From: Deltaproteobacteria bacterium
GTDB taxonomy: Bacteria; Desulfobacterota; Dissulfuribacteria; Dissulfuribacterales; QOAL01
NCBI GenBank assembly: GCA_024275145.1
Contig: JAJRZR010000032.1
Location: forward strand, 1 to 38,856
Length of the DNA: 38,856 bases
Reading direction: 5' to 3'
The first letter of the stretch is position 1. Each line of letters starts with the position of its first letter. This document shows, piece after piece, positions 4,278 through 38,595 of the stretch. A program made the translations under genes and the position numbers. The notes under the pieces were generated by a model. The model had not been told where the DNA came from. It ran no database searches and saw nothing but the letters and a program-made list of their open reading frames with translations.

Positions 4278-4554
4278 AATCCTCCCAGGCCTTATGCCTT
4301 ATACCAGACCTCCATCATGCAGCCCCCATCCTTGGCGCCGCATCCCAAGGACAAGATGTACCTTCACGGTGAACTTGCCCGGCCCACAAGTCAGCGATGC
4401 GTACCCTCCCCTTCATATATTCGACAACCTCGTGAAGATGCATCCTCCATAGGGCTGTATTTCCATGTCCGGGGATGCCAGAGAAGGACCGGACAGGCAT
4501 GAAGGTTTAGGATCGCATACCGGGATGTGCACAGATAGGGGGAGGAGGGCCAAA
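4278..4554. other. convergent gap between the regulator and hypB
   Basis: No gene is supported. The right half holds R2 copy 2 (4431-4508). No clear intrinsic terminator for either convergent gene was found. Confidence 0.5.
4431..4508 (-). repeat. R2 repeat, copy 2
   Basis: On the minus strand it reads TTCATGCC, then TGTCCGG pairing with CCGGACA, then TGGAAATAC, and ends with CCCTATGGAGGATGCAT and TTCACG. The same order of blocks occurs at 9040-9118 and 12021-12092. Here the outer right arm is ACATGGAA rather than GCATGAA. It lies just downstream of hypB. Confidence 0.65.
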
Positions 4555-5223
4555 TCATGGGGTCTGCGCCAACGGCGTAAGGTTTAAGAGTCCTTCCAAA
4601 AAGGTTATCCACTGATCAAAACCATCGTTATTAACAGAAGATAAAGATATTATCTCAAGTTCTGGATTAAGCTTCAAGGCCTCGGATCTGGCCTCATCCA
4701 CAAGGAAATCAAAATACGGCAAGAGATCCGTTTTGGTAATCAGAAACAGGTCAGCTCCCATAAATGCCCTTGGATATTTTGCCGGCTTGTCCGGTCCTTC
4801 CGGCACCGATACCAAAACAGCCCGTTTGTGCTCACCAAGATAGAACGTGGCAGGACAAACCAAGTTTCCCACATTTTCTATGAAGATGAGGTCCAGATCT
4901 CCACCATTGAGTTTATCTGCAAGGGCATGGAGTCCTTTGTTCACCAGGCTGGCATCAAGATGGCAGGCACCCCCTGTAGTAAGCTGGACCGCAGGGACCC
5001 CCTTTGCCCTGATCCTTTCCGCATCCCTGGCGGTCTCTATGTCGCCCTCGATAACCCCTATATGCACCCTGTCTGCCAGACACTCTATGGTCTTTTCAAG
5101 GAGTGTAGTCTTACCAGAACCAGGGGCACTTATGAGATTGAGCGCTATAGCCCCCATCCCTTCGATTATCTCCCTGTTCTTCCCAGCAAGTACATCGTTT
5201 GCAGCAAGGAGGTCGCGATGCAC
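4555..5223 (-). CDS. hypB: HypB GTPase domain, nickel insertion (N-terminus cut off by an amber codon)
   Basis: HypB is the GTPase that works with HypA to load nickel into NiFe-hydrogenase. This reading frame has the P-loop SAPGSGKTT, IEGDIETARDAERI, the GGACHLDASLV region, the nickel/zinc-site segment FIENVGNLVCPATFYLG, and the G4-like ITKTDLLPYFDF. The open frame begins at GTG 5223, directly after an in-frame TAG (5226-5224). The same frame continues upstream of the TAG to an ATG at 5307 that encodes a typical HypB beginning, MCETCGC. So the GTPase domain is intact while the N-terminal nickel motif is separated by one stop codon. The GTG start has only a weak AAGG before it; reinitiation, amber readthrough or sequence error are all possible. 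Last gene of the hyp cluster. Confidence 0.93.
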   Translation of the reverse strand: MHRDLLAANDVLAGKNREIIEGMGAIALNLISAPGSGKTTLLEKTIECLADRVHIGVIEGDIETARDAERIRAKGVPAVQLTTGGACHLDASLVNKGLHALADKLNGGDLDLIFIENVGNLVCPATFYLGEHKRAVLVSVPEGPDKPAKYPRAFMGADLFLITKTDLLPYFDFLVDEARSEALKLNPELEIISLSSVNNDGFDQWITFLEGLLNLTPLAQTP

Positions 5224-5319: not shown

Positions 5320-5667
5320 TTATTCCATTTCTACCTGCATCAAAAGAAGCTCGTCGCCCCCAACGGGGAAAAGCCCATCTCCTCCACAACTTGGACAACT
5401 TTCCGGACGCATTTCCGTGTCAGGCACAGTCCAACCACAATCCTTGCACCTGTAAGATGGCAGTGGCCTCTCTATTTGAAGGACTGCATCCCTGGCAAAA
5501 TCACTATTGGGCGCCAGTACCTTGAACCCAAAGACAAACGAATCAACGACCACCCCGGAGAAGGGCCCGATAGCCACCTTGACCCTTACGACCCTCTTGG
5601 CACCATTCTCTGATGCCAGTTCCCTGAGTTGATCAAGCAGGCCCTGGACCAGAGAGATTTCATGCAA
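5320..5667 (-). CDS. hypA: HypA hydrogenase nickel chaperone
   Basis: HypA delivers nickel to the hydrogenase large subunit together with HypB. The conserved start is HEISLVQGLL, where the N-terminal amine and His2 bind nickel. Here it is preceded by TTG (5667-5665), read as Met, giving 115 residues, the usual length. AGGTGG lies about eight bases upstream and the TTG comes one base after the stop of the protease gene. A longer frame to 5712 would bury the His and overlap the protease, so it is rejected. The zinc site is present as CKDCG and CPSCGG near residues 75-95. The gene is followed closely by the hypB N-terminal segment. Confidence 0.92.
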   Translation of the reverse strand: MHEISLVQGLLDQLRELASENGAKRVVRVKVAIGPFSGVVVDSFVFGFKVLAPNSDFARDAVLQIERPLPSYRCKDCGWTVPDTEMRPESCPSCGGDGLFPVGGDELLLMQVEME

Positions 5668-5668
5668 A

Positions 5669-6193
5669 TCAGCCCACCTGCCTTTCCTGAATCCTGAAAC
5701 CAAAATCCGCAAGGCGACCCGTCACCATATTTGCCACCACCTCCACCTTCGATTCAAGGGTAGAGGAAAGCCCTATACCCGTGGACACATCTCCGGGCAC
5801 GATCCCGACAAACTCCATATGAGAGGGGGCATTGCCGCGAAGTCTGCAAATCTCCAGTACCTCCATGAGCCCCACCTGGTGAGGGGACATACTGGCCTGG
5901 ATTCGTCCCGACCGCATCTCTCCTGGTCTGAAAAACCTCGTGGTACCGGCAGGCCCATCCATTGCCACCACATCGATAACGAGCAAGGGATCTGTCTCCT
6001 CAATGAACGGTGCCATATATATCCCCGCGGTCCCACCGTCCATTATCCGTACATTTCCTGGGAAGAGATACCGTGCTTCAAGATAACGGACCACATGTAC
6101 ACCAAAGCCCTCGTCCCTCAACAACAGGTTCCCGATTCCAAGGATACCCGCAGGCTTGGCCCCTGTACGTATATGTACGCTCATGTCTGACAA
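5669..6193 (-). CDS. NiFe-hydrogenase maturation endopeptidase (HycI/HyaD/HoxM type)
   Basis: A 174-residue nickel-dependent protease that trims the C-terminus of the hydrogenase large subunit after metal insertion. The family start GIGNLLLRDEGFGVHVVRYL includes the nickel-ligand Glu; the second ligand is in LLVIDVVAMDG and the His in SPHQVGLMEVL. The gene lies between hypE and hypA with short spacers. Its hydrogenase substrate is not in the window. Confidence 0.9.
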   Translation of the reverse strand: MSDMSVHIRTGAKPAGILGIGNLLLRDEGFGVHVVRYLEARYLFPGNVRIMDGGTAGIYMAPFIEETDPLLVIDVVAMDGPAGTTRFFRPGEMRSGRIQASMSPHQVGLMEVLEICRLRGNAPSHMEFVGIVPGDVSTGIGLSSTLESKVEVVANMVTGRLADFGFRIQERQVG

Positions 6194-6214: not shown

Positions 6215-7222
6215 TCAACAAATCCTCGGAAGTGGTTCGCCCTCGAGGGGAACAATGAGCCTGGCACCACCGGCCCTGGTCCTCAGGGTTACCCGTCCCG
6301 CCGGTCCTGATATCACCTCTCCGATAACCGTCGCATCCTTTCCCTCTGGCATGGAACGTATTGTCTCAAGGACCGCGGCAACCTGGTCAGAGGCAGCTAT
6401 CACGATGCACTTTCCCTCGTTTGCAAGATACAACGGGTCCAGCCCAAGCAGTTCACAGGCCGCCTTTATACCTGGCTTGACAGGTATCTTGGCTTCATCT
6501 ACTTCCATTGCCACACCCGATGCCTGGGCTATTTCCGTAAGGGCCGTTGCGACTCCACCCCTGGTAGGATCACGCATCGCATGAACCGTCCCTGGCAACC
6601 GGCTGACAAGCCCTTCGACCATCCTGTTCAGGGCGGCAGTATCGCTTTCAAGCTCACCCCCCAGGGATAGCCCTGCCCTTGATCCCATTATCGTAACACC
6701 GTGATCAGCCACACTACCCGAGATAATAATTACGTCTCCAGCCCTGGCACTTGCCCCGGATATCTCCACGTGGTCCGGCACCACACCCATCCCCGTAGTG
6801 TTTATAAAGATCTTATCGGCCTTTTGCCTTGGCACCACCTTCGTGTCCCCGGTGACCACGGGTACGCCGGCTTCATCCGAGGCATGTGCTACGGATTCGA
6901 TCACCCGTTCGAGATCCGCCATTGGAAAGCCCTCTTCTAGGATGAGGCTTAAGCTCATGCAAAAGGGTATGGCACCGCGCATTGAAAGATCGTTTATGGT
7001 GCCATTTACTGCAAGCCTTCCGATATCGCCCCCTGGGAAAAATATCGGATCCACCACATAGCTATCCGTGCTAAAGGCCAACTTACCTTGACGGCCTGGT
7101 ATTATGGCACAGTCCTCGAGACCGAGTATCCTCTGGGTAGGTAGATATTTCAGAAAAAGGCCCTGGATCAACTCCTGGCTCAAGAGCCCTCCGCTACCAT
7201 GGTCGATAAGAATTTTGTCCAT
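6215..7222 (-). CDS. hypE: HypE, carbamoyl dehydratase making the cyanide ligand
   Basis: HypE accepts a carbamoyl group from HypF on its C-terminal cysteine and dehydrates it with ATP to a thiocyanate, the source of the Fe-CN ligands. The N-terminal DHGSGG, the PurM-like ATP-binding core (FSTDSYVVDPIFFPGGDIG, VVTGDTKVV, MRDPTRGGVATAL) and the C-terminal end PRIC are all present. The start is taken at ATG 7222 (MDKILIDHGSGG); an in-frame TTG at 7237 would add five residues. Its upstream side faces the truncated R1 copy A, which separates it from hypD. Confidence 0.95.
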   Translation of the reverse strand: MDKILIDHGSGGLLSQELIQGLFLKYLPTQRILGLEDCAIIPGRQGKLAFSTDSYVVDPIFFPGGDIGRLAVNGTINDLSMRGAIPFCMSLSLILEEGFPMADLERVIESVAHASDEAGVPVVTGDTKVVPRQKADKIFINTTGMGVVPDHVEISGASARAGDVIIISGSVADHGVTIMGSRAGLSLGGELESDTAALNRMVEGLVSRLPGTVHAMRDPTRGGVATALTEIAQASGVAMEVDEAKIPVKPGIKAACELLGLDPLYLANEGKCIVIAASDQVAAVLETIRSMPEGKDATVIGEVISGPAGRVTLRTRAGGARLIVPLEGEPLPRIC

Positions 7223-7382
7223 CTTACCTGTGTTCAACCTTCGTTATATCGGTCATAGAGACGCACATCTACTGGCTTATCAAGCACTTGAATACTGTGG
7301 AATAAACCTGCCCCCTTCCGTCCTAAATACCTGGTAAACTTGCAACCTGCACAATTTACCGTAAAAGCACGCCATACATAAT

Positions 7383-7529
7383 CCCGGATTATGCAGCTCG
7401 CAAGTTTGCTGAAGATGCAAGGCGGAAGGACATGCAGACGTACTTGTGTACTTCAACTGACCGACAACGCAGTAAATTCGGCAAACTTGCGAGCCCCTTT
7501 TGGCTTCAAATGCTGGATGATTTCGTTGA
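7383..7529 (+). repeat. R1 repeat, copy A (type 1, right half missing)
   Basis: The left terminal repeat CCCGGATTATGCA is followed by a complete arm 1 with a perfect 14-bp base stem, GCTCGCAAGTTTGC ... GCAAACTTGCGAGC, and apical GTAC-TTGT-GTAC. Arm 2 begins with CTTCAAATGCTGGATG and matches copy E up to about 7529, where hypD coding sequence takes over. The last codons and stop of hypD lie inside this copy. The left flank CATAATC makes a CATAATC-CCG-GATTATG palindrome with the terminus. Confidence 0.85.
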
Positions 7530-8630
7530 TCGGTTACCTTCCGTTCTATAATATGCGGCGCAGGCCCCTTCGCTGGACACCATGCAAGGGCCAACCGGCC
7601 TCAGGGGGGTACAGCGCCTTGCGAACAAGGGACAATCCAACGGGACGAGCCTGCCCATCAGGACGTCTCCGCACCTGCAACCCTCTGGCTCCCGGACCTG
7701 GCCTGTTTTTATTCCAAGCCTGTGGCTTGCATCAAAGGCCTTGAACCTCGACCTTATGGCAAGACCGCTTCCAGGTATTGTTCCAAGTCCCCGCCACTTA
7801 GCATCAACAGGTTCGAAGACCTGGAACATCAAATCCCTGGCCTGTTGGTTTCCCTCCCTTGTGACAACCCTTGGGTAGCAATTCTCCACCCTTGCCATAC
7901 CGGCGTCCACCTGTACGACCAACCGAATAAGGCCGCCGATGATGTCCGCAGGTTCAAAACCGGCTATGACACAGGCGATACCGTACTTGGTTACCAACGG
8001 TTCATAGGCCTGGGCGCCAATGATCGCACTCACATGTCCCGGGCACAAAACCCCCTGGATCTTTAAGTCAGGATCAGAAAACAGTGCATCGAGCACAGGT
8101 GGCATCAACTTATTGGATGCATATACACAAAAATTTCCTAATCGCCTTCTGGCAGCTTCCAGGATAGTGGCGGCAATAGCGGGAGTAGTGGTTTCAAAAC
8201 CAACACCGATGAAAACCACAAGATCCTTCCGTTCATCAGCGGCAAGTTCCAGAGCATCCATGGGAGAGTAGACCACCTCGACCCTGGCTCCGCGGGATCT
8301 TGCCTCTGAAAGGGAACCCGATGCCCCTGGAACGCGCAACAAATCTCCAAAAACAGCCGCAATTACCCCTGGCGTAAGGGCAATCTCGATAAATGCATCT
8401 ATGTCCCCGGCAGATGTTACACAGACCGGGCAGCCAGGGCCGGATACCAGCCTCAGGCCAGCAGGGAAAAGATCCCTCAGGCCATGCCTGGCAACGGCCA
8501 TAGTGTGCGTTCCACACACCTCCATGAGGCTGATCGGCCTGTTTACCACCCTTTCCCGCTCGAAGGCAAGGCCTGAAACCAGGTCCCTGCCCCCGAATTC
8601 CTCTACGTACCTCAAACCGTATGATTTCAT
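7506..8630 (-). CDS. hypD: HypD, iron-sulfur scaffold for Fe(CN)2CO assembly
   Basis: HypD with HypC is the scaffold on which the Fe(CN)2CO unit is built. Conserved parts are MEVCGTHTMAVARHGL, SGPGCPVCVT, GFETTTPAIA, and the C-terminal cysteine-rich region (GCRCGDVL, CPLFARRCTP, SSEGACAAYYR) that binds the 4Fe-4S cluster. At 374 residues it is close to normal. The start is ATG 8630 with AAGGTCTGGA upstream. The last seven residues (STKSSSI) and the TGA lie in R1 copy A, so the original end was replaced. All catalytic cysteines are upstream of this junction, so function should be kept. hypC is the upstream partner. Confidence 0.95.
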   Translation of the reverse strand: MKSYGLRYVEEFGGRDLVSGLAFERERVVNRPISLMEVCGTHTMAVARHGLRDLFPAGLRLVSGPGCPVCVTSAGDIDAFIEIALTPGVIAAVFGDLLRVPGASGSLSEARSRGARVEVVYSPMDALELAADERKDLVVFIGVGFETTTPAIAATILEAARRRLGNFCVYASNKLMPPVLDALFSDPDLKIQGVLCPGHVSAIIGAQAYEPLVTKYGIACVIAGFEPADIIGGLIRLVVQVDAGMARVENCYPRVVTREGNQQARDLMFQVFEPVDAKWRGLGTIPGSGLAIRSRFKAFDASHRLGIKTGQVREPEGCRCGDVLMGRLVPLDCPLFARRCTPLRPVGPCMVSSEGACAAYYRTEGNRSTKSSSI

Positions 8631-8708
8631 TCCAGACCTTCATATGGCAGGCCCATTTGTATGAACGGCCATGGGCGCAAAAACACAGCACTTATCATGA
8701 AGCACATA

Positions 8709-8966
8709 TCAACCACCTACACCCCTGGCCATCTGCCTAAAGAGTATCAGGTTCTCAAGGGCCGCATCCTTGCTCAACACCTGAATGGCAAAGCCCGCAT
8801 GGACTATAAGATAGTCGCCCACAGCCGGTTTAAAACCGAGCAGATCCAAATGAACCTCCTTCCTTATACCCCCGGCGTCTACGATAGCGGTAGCACCAGA
8901 CAACCGCTTCTCTGCTACGTCACCGCCAGTAAGCTCAATAATACGCATCGGTATTGCCAAACACAT
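8709..8966 (-). CDS. hypC: HypC hydrogenase assembly chaperone
   Basis: An 85-residue OB-fold chaperone that binds HypD and then the hydrogenase large-subunit precursor. It starts with the diagnostic MCLAIPMRI, whose Cys2 is essential, and has the GDYLIVHAGFAIQVL region typical of the family. It lies 78 bases upstream of hypD in the same direction and is separated from hypF by R1 copy B and R2 copy 3. Confidence 0.95.
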   Translation of the reverse strand: MCLAIPMRIIELTGGDVAEKRLSGATAIVDAGGIRKEVHLDLLGFKPAVGDYLIVHAGFAIQVLSKDAALENLILFRQMARGVGG

Positions 8967-9039
8967 ATCTTTATCCTCCGATTGGGAGCATTTCCACCTT
9001 GTCCACCTCCGGCCAGCATCGGGCTTTTAAACTCAAACA

Positions 9040-9118
9040 TTCATGCCTGTTTCACGGCCCTCGTGCAGGTGTCCACGGGCATGAAAATACCACCCTGATG
9101 GAGGGATACCTTTTCACG
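9040..9118 (+). repeat. R2 repeat, copy 3
   Basis: The outer inverted repeat TTCATGC (9040-9046) / GCATGAA (9079-9085) is perfect. It is followed by AATACCACCCTGATGGAGG and TTTTCACG, matching copies 2 and 4. It lies upstream of hypC, near R1 copy B, and is in the orientation opposite to copies 1, 2 and 5. Confidence 0.7.
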
Positions 9119-9170
9119 CCAAGTTGCACGTTCTCAAATGCACAACAAGGCGAACGTATACTCCGATGAG

Positions 9171-9431
9171 CCCGGATTATGCAGCTCGCAAGTTTGCCGA
9201 AGATGCGAGGCGAAAGGACAGGCAGACGTACTTGTGTACTTCAACTGACCGACAATACGGCAGATTAGGTAAAATTGCAGGCCCCTTGCGGCTTCAAGTG
9301 CTGGATGATTTCATTGAGAAGTTGATGCACCTTTTGGGTGAACCGAAAGGGATGCTGATTTGCCTATAATATCTTGTAATTTTAGCACAATTCTATTTAT
9401 TCAGCAGTTGAAGTGCATACCCCGGGATAAA
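9171..9431 (+). repeat. R1 repeat, copy B (type 1)
   Basis: Left terminus CCCGGATTATGCA at 9171. Arm 1 has GCTCGCAAGTTTGCCG and apical GTAC-TTGT-GTAC; its 3' strand is partly decayed. The linker is CCCTTGCGG. Arm 2 runs from CTTCAAGTGCTGG to CAGCAGTTGAAG, and the right end is TGCATACCCCGGGATAAA. The right 39 bases encode, on the minus strand, the C-terminal 12 residues and TAG stop of hypF. Confidence 0.85.
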
Positions 9432-11741
9432 GGCCTGACCCAGCGATACACCTGCGTCGTTTACAGGCACCTGCTCCCCAGTATACACATCAAAGCCCCT
9501 TGTAGCCAACACGGACATAAGTCCTTCCAACAGGATCACGTTCTGGAACACCCCTCCGGCAAGGACGATTCGATTAACACCTGTCAGGCTGGAAAGCCAT
9601 TCTAACACCTTTACCAGGGAATCGACCAGCCAGATATGGAACTTCAAGGCAATTTCCTCCCTGGACATACCAAGGCCAAGATCACGTAGCACCCCTCCCA
9701 CCATTTCCCTGGTACCTATCACTATCTGGCTTGTATCCGAAGCACCTCCCTCCTTCCGCGACAATGTCACCGGATACCCCCGGCCCCTGTCCATTTCAAA
9801 AACAGTAGGGTCTCCAGGTTCGGTCAGAAGGCGGCGGGCCAATCCCTCCAGTTCCATGGCTGCCTGCCCCTCATATTCTGAAAAGTATCTTTGCCCCAAA
9901 AGTGCACAGATACCATCGAACAGCCGCCCACAGCTCGAGGTCGCAGGCGAATTGATGCCCTTTTCCATCATCTCCACGATCGTGCGCCTGTTCACAATCG
10001 GAATGGGTCCAAACCTGCGGTTGCTTTCAGCCAGGCAGTCCGCCCCAAGGATACCGAAGAGAAGCGCCATGCCCATACGCCAAGGCTCCCTTGCGGCTGC
10101 GTCCCCACCCGGCAAGGGCATGTATGCAAGGTGCCCCATGCGCATCAACTCCGTCCCATCGAGCATCAGCAATTCTCCGCCCCATATGGTTTGATCCGGC
10201 CCTATGCCGGCACCGTCCAGAACCACCGCCAGCACCCTGCCCTCAAGGCCGTGCTCAGCGATGACTGCCGCTGCGTGGGCCTGATGGTGCTGCACCGACT
10301 TACATGGAATAACAAGTCCCTTTGCATATCTTGTACTCAGATAATCCGGATGCAGATCGCAGACTGCCACCCTGGGCTCTATACCCAGGCACTTTTCCAG
10401 GTGCTCTATGGCTTCAATGTAAAAATCAAAAGAGTCCGGGCTAACCAAGTCGCCTATGTGCTGGCTGATAAAGGCCTTGCCATCCCTAAAGAGACAAAAG
10501 GTATTCTTAAGCTCCGCCCCACAGCCCAGGATGGTTGAAAAGCCACTCTTCACATCCACAGGGGCAGGCACATAGCCCCTGGATCTCCTGATGATCCTGA
10601 TTCTGCCCGCTGCAAACCTGGCAACCGAATCGTCCACCCTGGCGACGATGTGCCTGTCATGCATGAGGAAATAATCGGCCATCCCTCCAAGCCTTTCGAT
10701 AGCCTCCTGGTTCCCTGCACAGATGACCCCTCCGCCAGGATTTCCGCTGGTCATGACCAGGGCCTTTGGTGCCTGCGGGGCGGAAAGAAGCAGATGATGG
10801 ACCGGGGTATAGGGCAACATTATCCCTATCTCCAGGATTCCGGGCGCAACTCCATGCGCAATGGTACAGCCAGATTTTTTCCTCAGCAGCACTATGGGAC
10901 GTTGCCTGGAAGAAAGAAGCTCTGCCTCGGCTGTGGAAACATGACAAATGGAACGGGCGGCCTCAATCGTCTGGACCATGATGGCAAAGGGCTTCGATCG
11001 GCGTCCCTTCCTGCATCGCAGCAGGCCAACCGCCTTTTCAGAAAAGGCGTCGACCGCCAGGTGAAATCCCCCAAGCCCCTTGATAGCCACGACCTTGCCA
11101 TTACCCAATGCCTTTGCAGCGGCGCTGATACAATGATCTCTTGCAATGAGCTCTCCCCTGTAATCGTGCCATGAGAGCGAAGGGCCGCAGGCCTGGCAGG
11201 CGTCAGGCTGGGCATGGAATCTCCTGTTGGCAGGGTCATGGTACTCTGCCTCACACTCGGGGCACATGGGGAAATGCTTCATGGATGTATTGGGGCGGTC
11301 ATAGGGTGTAGATTCGACGATACTGAATCGCGGGCCACAATTCGTACAGTTTATGAACGGATAGCCATAACGCCTGTCTCCAGGGTCGGCAAGCTCCGCG
11401 AGACAATCATCACAGGTAGCTAGGTCCGGGGATATCAAAGCCGATCTTTCCTCCCCCTCCAGACTTTCTGCTATCGAAAACCCCTTACTCCCCGGATAAT
11501 ACCGGAGTGCACTTATCTCTACAGAGGTTATCACGGCAACGGAAGGTGCATCTTCCTTGATGCGTTTCGAAAATTGTTTTAAGGCATGGCCGTTACCGGA
11601 TGCCTGTATAATTACCCCCTGCCCTGAATTTGCGACCCAGCCACCGATCCCCATATTACGGGCAAGCCTGTAAACAAAAGGCCGGAACCCCACGCCTTGA
11701 ACGATCCCGTTGATCCTTATTTCTATCGTGTGTTCCTTCAT
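9393..11741 (-). CDS. hypF: HypF carbamoyltransferase
   Basis: HypF turns carbamoyl phosphate into a carbamoyl group on HypE, the first step of cyanide-ligand synthesis. The 782 residues show an N-terminal acylphosphatase domain (INGIVQGVGFRPFVYRL), paired zinc fingers (CDDCLAEL, CTNCGPRFSI, CPECEAEYHDP, CQACGP), a YrdC-like domain with KGLGGFHL, and a Kae1-like C-terminal domain with HHQAHAAAVIAEHG and VVLDGAGIG. ATG 11741 follows AAGGG. The last residues, IPGYALQLLNK, and the TAG are encoded by R1 copy B; the 5' side abuts copy C, about 14 bases from the start codon. The gene is therefore bracketed by two repeats. Confidence 0.96.
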   Translation of the reverse strand: MKEHTIEIRINGIVQGVGFRPFVYRLARNMGIGGWVANSGQGVIIQASGNGHALKQFSKRIKEDAPSVAVITSVEISALRYYPGSKGFSIAESLEGEERSALISPDLATCDDCLAELADPGDRRYGYPFINCTNCGPRFSIVESTPYDRPNTSMKHFPMCPECEAEYHDPANRRFHAQPDACQACGPSLSWHDYRGELIARDHCISAAAKALGNGKVVAIKGLGGFHLAVDAFSEKAVGLLRCRKGRRSKPFAIMVQTIEAARSICHVSTAEAELLSSRQRPIVLLRKKSGCTIAHGVAPGILEIGIMLPYTPVHHLLLSAPQAPKALVMTSGNPGGGVICAGNQEAIERLGGMADYFLMHDRHIVARVDDSVARFAAGRIRIIRRSRGYVPAPVDVKSGFSTILGCGAELKNTFCLFRDGKAFISQHIGDLVSPDSFDFYIEAIEHLEKCLGIEPRVAVCDLHPDYLSTRYAKGLVIPCKSVQHHQAHAAAVIAEHGLEGRVLAVVLDGAGIGPDQTIWGGELLMLDGTELMRMGHLAYMPLPGGDAAAREPWRMGMALLFGILGADCLAESNRRFGPIPIVNRRTIVEMMEKGINSPATSSCGRLFDGICALLGQRYFSEYEGQAAMELEGLARRLLTEPGDPTVFEMDRGRGYPVTLSRKEGGASDTSQIVIGTREMVGGVLRDLGLGMSREEIALKFHIWLVDSLVKVLEWLSSLTGVNRIVLAGGVFQNVILLEGLMSVLATRGFDVYTGEQVPVNDAGVSLGQAFIPGYALQLLNK

Positions 11742-11754
11742 CTCAACCCTTCAT

Positions 11755-12019
11755 CCCGGATTATCCCAGATTATGCAGCTCGAAAGTTTGCCGGAGATGC
11801 AAGGCATCAGGGGCGCAGACATACTTAGGTATTTCAAGTCCCTGATAACGCAGCAGATTCGGTAAACTTTCGAGCCCCTTGCGGCTTCAAATGCCGAACA
11901 ACTTCATTGCATTTTGCTTGCACCTTTTAGGTGAAAAAACGAAAACGGTTTCTTGCTTATAACATCTTGAAATTTAAGGAATAATATTTTTGTTCGGCAT
12001 TTGAAGTGCATAATTTGAG
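11755..12019 (+). repeat. R1 repeat, copy C (type 2)
   Basis: Left terminus CCCAGATTATGCA at 11765, preceded by a second partial terminus CCCGGATTAT at 11755. Arm 1 (11778-11875) has base stem GCTCGAAAGTTTGCCG / CGGTAAACTTTCGAGC, inner stem ATCAGGG / CCCTGAT and apical ATAC-TTAG-GTAT. The linker is CCCTTGCGG. Arm 2 (11885-12006) has a perfect 17-bp stem, CTTCAAATGCCGAACAA / TTGTTCGGCATTTGAAG, and an internal CACCT-TTT-AGGTG hairpin. The right terminus is TGCATAATTTGAG. Nearly identical to copy F. Confidence 0.9.
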
Positions 12020-12020
12020 A

Positions 12021-12092
12021 TTATGCCTGCCCGACCCGCATCCAGGCACCCCGGGACATAAAAGTACCGCCCTGATGGAGGATGTATTTTAC
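12021..12092 (+). repeat. R2 repeat, copy 4, abutting R1 copy C
   Basis: TTATGCCTG, then a GC-rich centre, then CCCCGGGACATAAAAGTACC, CCCTGATGGAGGATGTAT and TTTTACG follow the block order of copies 2 and 3. It begins within two bases of the right end of R1 copy C. Confidence 0.55.
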
Positions 12093-12374
12093 GCTAAATT
12101 GTTGCGCAGTCTACAACATCGAAACCGCATACTGGCAGTAGACTCTGTGTACAATCTTACCGAGTCTTGTATGGGCTATCATACACCTGCATGTTGATGG
12201 AACATAGAAAATTTGCACGCTGTATAAATACGGTTTGATCAATACTGCACCCGGCTATCCCTCGGTCGCCATCAATACCCTGGCAGATGAATTGCAGATG
12301 CCGGTGTGACTGCCAATGAATGAACCAAGCCAAATGGAAATTGGTGGCGGAAATATACCGATGGAGGTGACAAC
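12093..12374. other. gap upstream of the first FG-GAP gene
   Basis: No supported gene. A short open frame ending at TGA near 12309 has protein-like composition (NTAPGYPSVAINTLADELQ) but no credible start codon. It may be a relic. No clear promoter was identified. Confidence 0.35.
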
Positions 12375-14643: not shown

Positions 14644-15052
14644 TGATCTTGTATCAATTCCGGCACATGGTCAGCCTGCCCGGCCATTTCTACCGCCCCT
14701 CAAAACCCTATTGCAGACCGCCGGGATGGTACCACAGGAATAGGTATTCCACAAAAGCTGGGGACAGGGGATGGCCATTTTGGCATAACTTTCATCTAAA
14801 ATTTATGCGGCTTGCAAGTTTGCCAAGGAATACAAGGAAGGCGAAAATGCAACGGTCTTCACGTAAAAACAGTGGGTTTGCAAATCCTTTGATTTTCTTC
14901 TAAACTATTTTTTTATTTGAGCGGATTTCGAAGTATCACCCAAGTGTGAATATTCATGCATATCAAAAATACCCATAACTGCCTTAAATAAAAAATTATC
15001 TTTGTTCTGTATGTGAAAATGCATAATTCGGGATGAAGGCAAGGAGGTATAG
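14644..15052. other. gap upstream of the polysaccharide export gene
   Basis: No gene supported. It contains a decayed R1 relic (14803-15033), whose right end comes directly before the AAGGAGG of the next gene. Confidence 0.5.
14803..15033 (+). repeat. R1 repeat, decayed relic
   Basis: The left end TTATGCGGCTTGCAAGTTTG resembles the R1 terminus plus arm 1 (TTATGCAGCTCGCAAGTTTG). The right end ATGCATAATTCGGGAT resembles TGCATAATCCGGGAT. The distance of about 230 bases is right for the family, but the centre no longer aligns well. Confidence 0.5.
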
Positions 15053-27000: not shown

Positions 27001-27293
27001 GGGGAGCATTTCCCTCGTTTGTCCCAAGTTTCTCAAATGCCGAACAAAAATATTGTTCCTTAAATTTCAAGATATTATAAGCAAGAAACCGTTTTCGTTT
27101 TTTCACCTAAAAGGTGCAAGCAAAATGCAATGAAGTTGTTCGACATTTGAAGCCGCAAGGGGCTCGAAATTTTACCGAATCTGCAGGGGCTTGAAATACT
27201 TAAGTATGTCTGCGCCCCTGATGTCTTGCATCTCCGGCAAACTTTAGAGCTGCATAATCTGGGCTAAAATGGGACAAACCGGGAATGCTTCCC
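27001..27293. repeat. inverted repeat flanking R1 copy D
   Basis: GGGGAGCATTTCCC plus TCGTTTGTCCCA (27001-27026) is nearly the reverse complement of TGGGACAAACCGGGAATGCTTCCC (27270-27293). Each arm itself has a short CGGGAA/TTCCCG-type hairpin. The pair encloses R1 copy D almost exactly. Confidence 0.7.
27032..27263 (-). repeat. R1 repeat, copy D (type 2, inverted)
   Basis: Read on the minus strand: terminus CCCAGATTATGCA, arm 1 starting AGCTCTAAAGTTTGCCGGAG with apical ATAC-TTAA-GTAT, then a short deletion in the 3' strand of arm 1, linker CCCCTTGCGG and arm 2 with CTTCAAATGTCGAACAA and TTGTTCGGCATTTGAG. The outer right terminus has decayed. This is the only copy in the reverse orientation. 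Confidence 0.85.
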
Positions 27294-27489: not shown

Positions 27490-27748
27490 CCCGGATTATG
27501 CAGCTCGCAAGTTTGTTGAAGATGCAAAGCGGAGGACACGCTGACGTACTTGTGTACTTCAAGTGCCCGACAACGCACTAAATTCGGCAAAATTACGAGC
27601 CCCTTGCTTCTTCAAATGCTGGATGATTTCGTTGAGAAATTGATGCACCTTTTGGGTGAACCGAAGAGGATGCTGATTTGCTATAACATCTTGTGATTTT
27701 AACACAATTCTATTTATTCAGCATTTGAAGTGCATAATCCGGGATAAA
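27490..27748 (+). repeat. R1 repeat, copy E (type 1)
   Basis: This copy has perfect 13-bp termini, CCCGGATTATGCA (27490-27502) and TGCATAATCCGGG (27731-27743). Arm 1 spans 27503-27600 with apical GTAC-TTGT-GTAC and a base stem with a few mismatches. The linker is CCCTTGCTT (27601-27609). Arm 2 spans 27610-27730 with the perfect 12-bp stem CTTCAAATGCTG / CAGCATTTGAAG. Termini and arms join without spacer on two sides. Both flanks read ATAAA. Confidence 0.9.
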
Positions 27749-29157: not shown

Positions 29158-30474
29158 ATGCGAAGATCAGCAATAATAAAAGGATCAATTTTTTCCATAA
29201 TTGATCAAGGTATTATTTCATTTTCTAATTTTGTTTCAGGAATAATTATAGCCAGGGCCTTGGCTCCTAGTGGTTATGGAATTTACTCCCTCTTCTTTGG
29301 GGCGTTAATGCTATTAGCAGGAATCCAAAATGCATTAATGACTGGTCCGGTTAGAGTCTTGGGCGTTAAAACAAATGAAGAAGAAACCCTATACTATTTT
29401 AACACACAATTAATTCTTCAGTACATTCTAGGAACTCTAATCAGTATTTCCGCAATCTTCATCTTGTATGTATTCCTTCATGTTGAATGGAAGCTAATAG
29501 TTAATTTTTCAATCTGCCTTTTTTCCTGGCAATTGATGGAACTTACAAGGGTAATTTACCTTACTCGCCTTACCCTAAAAAAATTATTTCTCGTCGACCT
29601 AATCACACAAATTCTAAGAATTTCGGCTCTTTATTATCTAGCCAGCTCAACTCTGCTTGATCCAGCAAATGCCTTAGCTGCAATCAGCGCGAGTTCATTG
29701 CTAGGAGTTCTTATATTTTTTTTAACTGAACCTGGCATCGGCCTTAGAAATAACAATCCAATATTGGAAACCATGCATTCAAATTGGGAATTTGGACGCT
29801 GGTTATTATTGGAGACTATTGTTTACAGTGCTTCAACACAGGCTTATCTGTACTTTACTGCTTTGTGGATAGATACTAAATCCGTTGGTGCGCTAAGCGC
29901 AGTCCAAAATATCTTGAATGTTTTCAATATATTCTTGATTGGATTAATGGGCTTTGCCGTGCCAGTGGCCAGGAAAAAACTATTGGCTTTTGGCTACAGG
30001 ATATGGAAGAGATGGCTTTTACAAGTCGGATTCACCCTCTTCCTTTTAGCTGCAATGATAGGTCTATTCATGTCAATTTTTGCAAGACCCATTCTCGCTC
30101 TTGTCTATTCCTCGACATTTACAACCTACTCTTATCTCATGCCAATTTTTGCGGTTATATTATGTTTCAAGGCATTAAATTCCATATTTTCAGCATGTTT
30201 TAGAACTGCTCTCTTTCCCCAGGTCGGATTTTCAGCAAAATTGGTATCTGCGATATTGACAGTGGTTATCGCTTACCCGCTTCTCAAAACCTATAGATTA
30301 ACCGGTGCAGCGATGGGCCTGCTATTCACCCAGGTGTTTTGGACCGCAGTATATCTAATATATTTAAAGAGAGGCATCCTGGACAAAGAGGCTGTCCTAG
30401 AACGCATAAACCCAGATTATGGAGCTCGAAAGTTTGCCGGAGATGCAAGACATCAGGGGCGCAGACATACTTAG
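29158..30474 (+). CDS. wzx: Wzx-like lipid-linked oligosaccharide flippase
   Basis: 438 residues with about twelve membrane segments, MATE/MOP superfamily polysaccharide flippase. The N-terminus IKGSIFSIIDQGIISFSNFV and GIIIARALAPSGYGIYSLFF is characteristic. It moves undecaprenyl-linked repeat units across the inner membrane for the Wzy next door. The native part ends near ILDKEAVLERI; the last 22 residues (starting NPDYGARKFAGDARHQGRRH) and the stop are read from arm 1 of R1 copy F. Composition is AT-rich but less so than wzy. Confidence 0.88.
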   Translation: MRRSAIIKGSIFSIIDQGIISFSNFVSGIIIARALAPSGYGIYSLFFGALMLLAGIQNALMTGPVRVLGVKTNEEETLYYFNTQLILQYILGTLISISAIFILYVFLHVEWKLIVNFSICLFSWQLMELTRVIYLTRLTLKKLFLVDLITQILRISALYYLASSTLLDPANALAAISASSLLGVLIFFLTEPGIGLRNNNPILETMHSNWEFGRWLLLETIVYSASTQAYLYFTALWIDTKSVGALSAVQNILNVFNIFLIGLMGFAVPVARKKLLAFGYRIWKRWLLQVGFTLFLLAAMIGLFMSIFARPILALVYSSTFTTYSYLMPIFAVILCFKALNSIFSACFRTALFPQVGFSAKLVSAILTVVIAYPLLKTYRLTGAAMGLLFTQVFWTAVYLIYLKRGILDKEAVLERINPDYGARKFAGDARHQGRRHT

Positions 30475-30670
30475 GTATTTCAAGTCTCTGATAACGCAGC
30501 AGATTCGGTAAAATTTCGAGCCCTTTGCGGCTTCAAATGCCGAACAACTTCATTGCATTTTGCTTGCATCTTTTAGGTGAAAAAACGAAAACGGTTTCTT
30601 GCTTATAACATCTTGAAATTTAAGGAACAATATTTTTGTTCGACATTTGAAGTGCATAATTTGGGATAAA
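30411..30670 (+). repeat. R1 repeat, copy F (type 2)
   Basis: Left terminus CCCAGATTATGGA at 30411; arm 1 with GCTCGAAAGTTTGCCG, inner ATCAGGG / TCTGAT and apical ATAC-TTAG-GTAT; arm 2 with CTTCAAATGCCGAACAA / TTGTTCGACATTTGAAG; right end TGCATAATTTGGGATAAA. It differs from copy C, 18 kb away, at only a handful of positions. Both flanks read ATAAA. Its left part is translated as the wzx C-terminus. Confidence 0.9.
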
Positions 30671-38103: not shown

Positions 38104-38198
38104 AAACAAAATTAAACCATGCTACATGATAAACAGATATCTAGATCTTATCCTAATTGAGACAGCCAATAGGAAACAATCATCGTACTGGCTTAGAC

Positions 38199-38595
38199 TT
38201 AATCTGAGACTTTTTCCATTGGCAAAGGTGTCTGTCTGGCATCCAGCATTTTTTCTTTGGCAATATGTAACGAATCCAGAAAGGTCTGCATAGGGGTTTT
38301 GCCAAAACAGTATTTTCCTGAATGAGTTTTTTTCTTCATTATACCATTTCAACCACTGGTTCAAGTCTTCCTGTAGTTCATCCAGCGAAGAATATACCTT
38401 TTTTCGGAAGGCAATCTGGTAAAACTCATTCAGTACGATTTTATGGAAGCATTCACAGATTCCATTGGCTTGAGGGCTCCTGGCCCTGGTTTTTGAATGA
38501 TCGATATATTCAATGGCAAGATAAAGCTGGTATTCGTGTGTGAGGTGGATCCCATTGTCAAGACAGAAAATCGTTAAAGTTAAGCAATAATCCAC
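38199..38595 (-). pseudogene. IS3-like transposase remnant (integrase core, frameshifted)
   Basis: The minus-strand frame contains LDNGIHLTHEYQLYLAIEYI, ARSPQANGICECFHKIVLNE and DLNQWLKWYNEEK, the second Asp and the Glu regions of the DDE core. At a 7-base T-run (38327-38333) the frame is lost; shifting by one base restores KTHSGKYCFGKTPMQTFLDS and the normal end, stopping at TAA (38201-38199). The N-terminal half, with the first Asp, is missing. An inactive remnant. Confidence 0.85.

Follow-up and report, generated by a model that had tools for sequence, protein, structure and literature searches.

Short dispersed repeats of the MITE type have been described from several bacteria, among them CREE/NEMIS of Neisseria, ERIC, and QMITE1/2 of Coxiella (PMC5896051, PMC4133298). 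They are non-coding, multicopy sequences bounded by terminal inverted repeats (TIRs), lie mostly between genes, are accompanied by target duplications and form strong hairpins. QMITE2 provides the C-terminal 33 residues of the Coxiella protein EnhC, with the stop codon immediately downstream (PMC5896051). BOX and RUP of Streptococcus pneumoniae (PMC3049150) are likewise small repeats interspersed through a bacterial chromosome; they belong to an unrelated host group and are likened here by description, not by sequence. Among transposase-encoding elements, those of the IS1380 family produce target duplications of 4-5 bp (PMC12116815), for which a 5-bp example is on record (PMC4133298). The repeat analysed here, R1, agrees with CREE/NEMIS, ERIC and QMITE1/2 in all of the general properties named above and with QMITE2 also in contributing C-terminal residues to a host protein, and differs from them in termini, sequence, size and host group; unlike theirs, its termini match an IS1380-type element. 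With the IS1380 family (DDE_Tnp_1_4, PF13701) R1 has its 13-bp termini and its 5-bp duplication in common, and it differs from that family in having no transposase.

The window, that is, the whole stretch of DNA analysed, comprises 38,856 nucleotides of a 2.65-Mb draft genome in 120 contigs. A complete hyp set is encoded on its minus strand (gene order F-C-D-E-protease-A-B), and several copies of R1 and of a second dispersed motif, R2, are present as well (Table 1). As the earlier note had described, hypC and hypD lie between R1 copies B and A, and hypE, the protease gene, hypA and hypB follow beyond copy A. Its statement that hypF is bracketed by copies B and C also stands, including the position of the hypF stop (9393) within copy B; only the spacing of copy C from the hypF start codon, put there at about 14 bases, had to be corrected to 23 bp. 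R1 is absent from the four remaining gene borders inside the operon (hypC/D, E/protease, protease/A and A/B).

Table 1. Positions of hyp genes and of R1 and R2 copies in the window.
Feature	Position	Strand	Remarks
R2 copy	4413-4508	-	
hypB	4555..5223	-	Pfam PF02492 cobW/HypB/UreG
hypA	5320..5712	-	Pfam PF01155
Hydrogenase maturation protease (HycI-type)	5669..6193	-	Pfam PF01750
hypE	6215..7237	-	Pfam AIRS/AIRS_C; order conserved in relatives
R1 copy A	7383..7529	+	T2 subfamily, 3' part missing; hypD/hypE border
hypD	7506..8630	-	Pfam PF01924
hypC	8709..8966	-	Pfam PF01455
R2 (about 90 nt)	9033..9130	+	between hypC and R1 copy B
R1 copy B	9171..9426	+	T2 subfamily, full length, both TIRs; hypF/hypC border
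hypF	9393..11741	-	Pfam HypF domains
R1 copy C	11765..12019	+	T1 subfamily, full length; 23 bp upstream of hypF ATG
R2 copy	12024-12110	+	
Diverged R1-like copy	14803..15032	+	
R1 copy	27023..27263	-	T1 subfamily; one end imperfect
R1 copy	27490..27743	+	T2 subfamily; perfect duplication ATAAA
R1 copy	30411..30665	+	T1 subfamily; perfect duplication ATAAA

Full-length R1 is about 255 bp long, is bounded by 13-bp TIRs (CCCRRATTATGCA) and contains neither a transposase gene nor any long ORF of its own, which agrees with the shortness expected of a MITE. The TIR pattern was matched 138 times in the draft genome and a reversed control pattern once, so chance falls far short of accounting for the repeat. 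Searching the genome by BLAST with one query for each of the two subfamilies, T1 and T2, returned 44 matches per query. In the stretches retrieved, 47 non-redundant copies of at least 150 bp were mapped, so that the genome has at least this number, on dozens of contigs. The copy ends were anchored by BLAST, and a scan for TIR pairs with 4 mismatches was dropped as too noisy. In 43 aligned copies both ends carry the TIR, with at least 9 of 13 positions each. Target duplications were assessed on the 43 copies from this genome and its relatives in which both ends are present, and perfect 5-bp duplications (consensus WTNAW) flank 29 of them, where 3.2 were expected from shuffles. Identity to the respective subfamily reference is 93-98% for most T1 copies and 82-91% for most T2 copies, and between the two subfamilies it is about 74%; these identity levels suggest one older and one younger burst. 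TIRs, a target duplication of fixed length, multicopy dispersal and empty sites in relatives are thus all found for R1. A named family for it was not found in the literature examined, in Rfam, or in plasmid and phage collections, the last two without any R1 match; Rfam gave no covariance match above gathering score across the whole window, and nothing over threshold at the hypC-hypF junction.

Within the hyp operon, copy C lies between two identical 5-bp sequences (ATTAT; 11760-11764 and 12020-12024), and copies A and B lack such a perfect duplication. The flanks of copy B, ATGAG and ATAAA, represent a decayed duplication. Copy A starts with its TIR (CCCGGATTATGCA) at 7383 and is 90% identical to T2 over positions 2-152 (BLAST). 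Copy C apparently landed in an older R1-like terminus (window 11752-11777, CCCGGATTATGC before insertion), and its ATTAT target apparently lay within this relic.

One 1,672-bp element of this genome shares its termini with R1 and carries between them a decayed IS1380-type transposase (PF13701) with many stops; its flanks are imperfect (TTATA/ATTAA), and its similarity to R1, judged by eye, ends after about 20 nt on one side and 13 on the other. Similar transposases occur in eight genomes of the order. In five of these, namely this one, G007, G027, G035 and G026, an R1 terminus adjoins the transposase, and in a sixth (G022) a weaker match to the terminus does. An intact autonomous element, which would support membership in an IS1380-derived group rather than strictly define it, was not found, the single decayed copy being the only one detected in this draft. 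Given the termini in common with IS1380-type loci and the duplication of 5 bp, R1 is best filed as an IS1380-type MITE, and since no intact partner was found in this genome we infer that it was mobilised in trans.

The reading that we favour, with a probability of about 0.92, is that R1 is a non-autonomous IS1380-type MITE whose insertions came to lie in tolerated gaps and left the hyp gene order unchanged. The transposase that moved R1 would have been of the IS1380 type and have had matching ends (a decayed copy is all that was found of it here), and R1 would have inserted at many places, making a 5-bp WTNAW duplication. Copies that broke needed genes would have been lost, and the survivors would be intergenic and mostly near the 3' ends of genes, where they would have taken the place of dispensable C-terminal tails and brought stop codons with them. 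Three insertions, one of which was later truncated, would have hit the hyp operon, with probably little effect on hyp expression. Counting against this reading are the missing autonomous element, the imperfect duplications at copies A and B, and hairpins that have been kept better than pure junk requires, as described below.

The placement of R1 in the genome is an insertion pattern with subsequent loss of harmful copies, for which purifying selection would be the cause. None of the 47 copies lies inside a called gene, the calls having been made with a simple home-made caller that missed some AT-rich genes. Twenty-six copies lie between tandem genes, 8 between divergent and 5 between convergent ones, and the remaining 8 are located at contig ends or beside an uncalled gene. 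The median distance to gene 3' ends is 82 bp and that to 5' ends 265 bp (P = 6e-5); overlaps with gene ends number eight at 3' ends and none at 5' ends. The copy at 30411, for instance, provides the stop for an upstream ORF (29158-30474). These figures bear out the suggestion of the earlier note that the copies may mark tolerated insertion sites. The same note had placed R1 exactly at gene-block borders and had named copies at random positions, including inside genes, as the observation that would speak against this. Three copies do lie at borders in the hyp operon and the association with 3' ends is general; joining the flanks of full copies revealed a single copy that splits a gene, a transposase, so that the contrary observation was made in part. 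This copy (L016:1505-1716; G000:C111:11638-11849) is shortened to 212 bp and has a perfect TTTAA duplication, and the gene that it splits is rve-like, so that one mobile element lies within another. A fragment of an rve-type transposase (PF13683) is also found at the contig end in the window (38122-38595, minus strand), and an ORF similar to it adjoins the R1 copy in L016.

In the hyp operon two genes end within R1. Besides the hypF stop in copy B, the hypD stop (7506-7508) falls within copy A, a point absent from the earlier note; as copy A lacks its 3' part and hypD extends into it, copy A supplies the hypD stop. The conserved core of HypF in the window ends in ...NDAGVSLGQAF and is followed by the tail IPGYALQLLNK*, which is encoded by copy B. 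That of HypD ends in ...GACAAYYR, followed by the tail TEGNRSTKSSSI*, which is mostly encoded by copy A. In relatives, the cores end in ...NDGGLSLGQ (HypF) and ...CMVSSEGTCAAYYRY (HypD), after which variable tails follow. Compared with these, both proteins are changed solely past the last conserved residue, and their Pfam domains are otherwise complete.

The regions around hypF and hypD were compared with those of 34 other genomes of the order. F-C-D is uninterrupted with small gaps in about 30 of the 34, and in most of these E, protease, A and B come next. R1 was found inside the hyp operon in none of the 34, and several of these relatives carry it elsewhere in the genome; the junctions that correspond to copies A and B are R1-free. 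The window therefore has the ancestral gene order and orientation, and R1 has reshuffled nothing. A search of named genomes with HypF yielded only distant relatives (38-48% identity), too remote to serve for empty sites. Around the R1 copies that lie outside hyp in the window, the synteny comparison with G001, G004 and G007 yielded almost exclusively matches to further R1 copies.

G001, the one congeneric genome available for comparison, retains the neighbouring gene (83% identity) and the start of hypF, without copy C. The distance from the hypF start to a conserved TGTATGGGCTATCATACA is 93 bp in G001 and 427 bp in the window, copy C interrupting the hypF leader relative to G001; as the flanks have partly diverged, the empty site is not base-perfect. 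The TGTATGGGCTATCATACA itself (window 12168-12187; L236 about 764-782), located upstream of hypF and palindromic at its ends, is identical in the congener despite the diverged surroundings and is possibly an operator. In G001 the hyp set has collapsed (L236, G001:C94, 1-680): after codons 1-35 of hypF the sequence continues with the region immediately before hypB, hypB carries an in-frame stop, and no other hyp gene was found at this locus. G039 has two hyp sets, of which one (L238, G039:C237) is broken, its hypF, hypD and hypE being interrupted by internal gaps, and the other, on a different contig, is better preserved.

Among the alternatives, the one that fares best holds that R1 acts at the RNA level, its hairpins being processed by an RNase III-like activity or serving as attenuators or insulators, which would uncouple the expression of hypF, hypCD and hypEAB from one another. 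We regard this as unlikely, although part of the evidence is in its favour. In both subfamilies the fold of R1 comprises a terminal stem and two long hairpins (z -9.4 for T1, -6.7 for T2), and in 39 copies 90% of the pair cells are standard. Double-sided changes occur in 128 cells (21 pairs), as against 41 in shuffles and 11-28 in slid controls, and such compensatory changes indicate that the structure has been maintained across subfamilies and genomes. The strand transcribed with hyp folds as well (z -6.0 for C, -2.9 for B and -1.9 for A), and a MITE of similar build, QMITE2, has been suggested as an RNase III substrate (PMC5896051). Against it stand the random orientation of R1 to tandem genes (15:11, P = 0.56), the failure to find a terminator-like site in the R1 copies, the poor folding of A and B compared with the consensus, and the relatives that have the same operon without R1. 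Moreover, the conservation of structure could equally serve transposition or an RNA function. An RNA role of R1 is possible and is not needed to explain the pattern. Less probable still, and in our view quite improbable, is a further idea by which R1 is not mere junk: RNA-level selection would keep the hairpins, and copies at 3' ends would act as ready-made gene ends that tune operon segments. If this were true, an R1 copy would equip a gene, for example in hyp, with a stop codon as well as with a stable hairpin at its 3' end.

The earlier note had also considered that the copies are recombination borders which allow blocks of the hyp set to move as cassettes. In principle, recombination between repeats at borders is conceivable, and copies A and B are about 87% identical and in the same orientation; B and C, however, belong to subfamilies of only about 74% identity, no R1-flanked hyp block was seen in the operon regions of relatives, and relatives without R1 show an identical, almost gapless order F-C-D-E-protease-A-B. 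One rearrangement alone was analysed in detail: the deletion in G001 that joins hypF at about codon 35 to the hypA-hypB gap. It has no R1 at its junction and ends at neither R1 site. This reading is accordingly highly improbable. Equally improbable is a specific targeting of hyp or of operon junctions, which three copies at three borders of a single operon might suggest: most of the 47 mapped copies are found at unrelated genes, many relatives have R1 and none has it in hyp, the target consensus is merely WTNAW, and with 47-70 randomly placed copies a triple within 4.64 kb would arise somewhere with a probability of 13-37%, so that the clustering at hyp is not beyond chance.

The second motif, R2 (TTCATGCC...GGRCATGAAAATACAGCCCTGATGGAGGGTGCATTTTCACGGTAAA), has 16 BLAST matches in this genome and a copy in the congener (L077:1388-1502). 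It sometimes adjoins R1, and some copies fold into two hairpins; a convincing consensus structure was not obtained, and R2 is absent from Rfam. The R2-like blocks beside hypC and hypF were considered as a duplicated hyp promoter, an idea that was given up since R2 is also present at more than 10 further places.

Read as the result of MITE insertion, an odd-looking operon is explained without special machinery, and the case is largely an ordinary one. It adds R1, a MITE family linked to an IS1380-type transposase and found in about half of the sampled genomes of a bacterial order, and it offers a clear example of a MITE from which two genes of one conserved pathway have obtained their stop codons and C-terminal tails. 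For annotation it counsels caution, both with regard to such artificial tails and against reading breaks in an operon as function.
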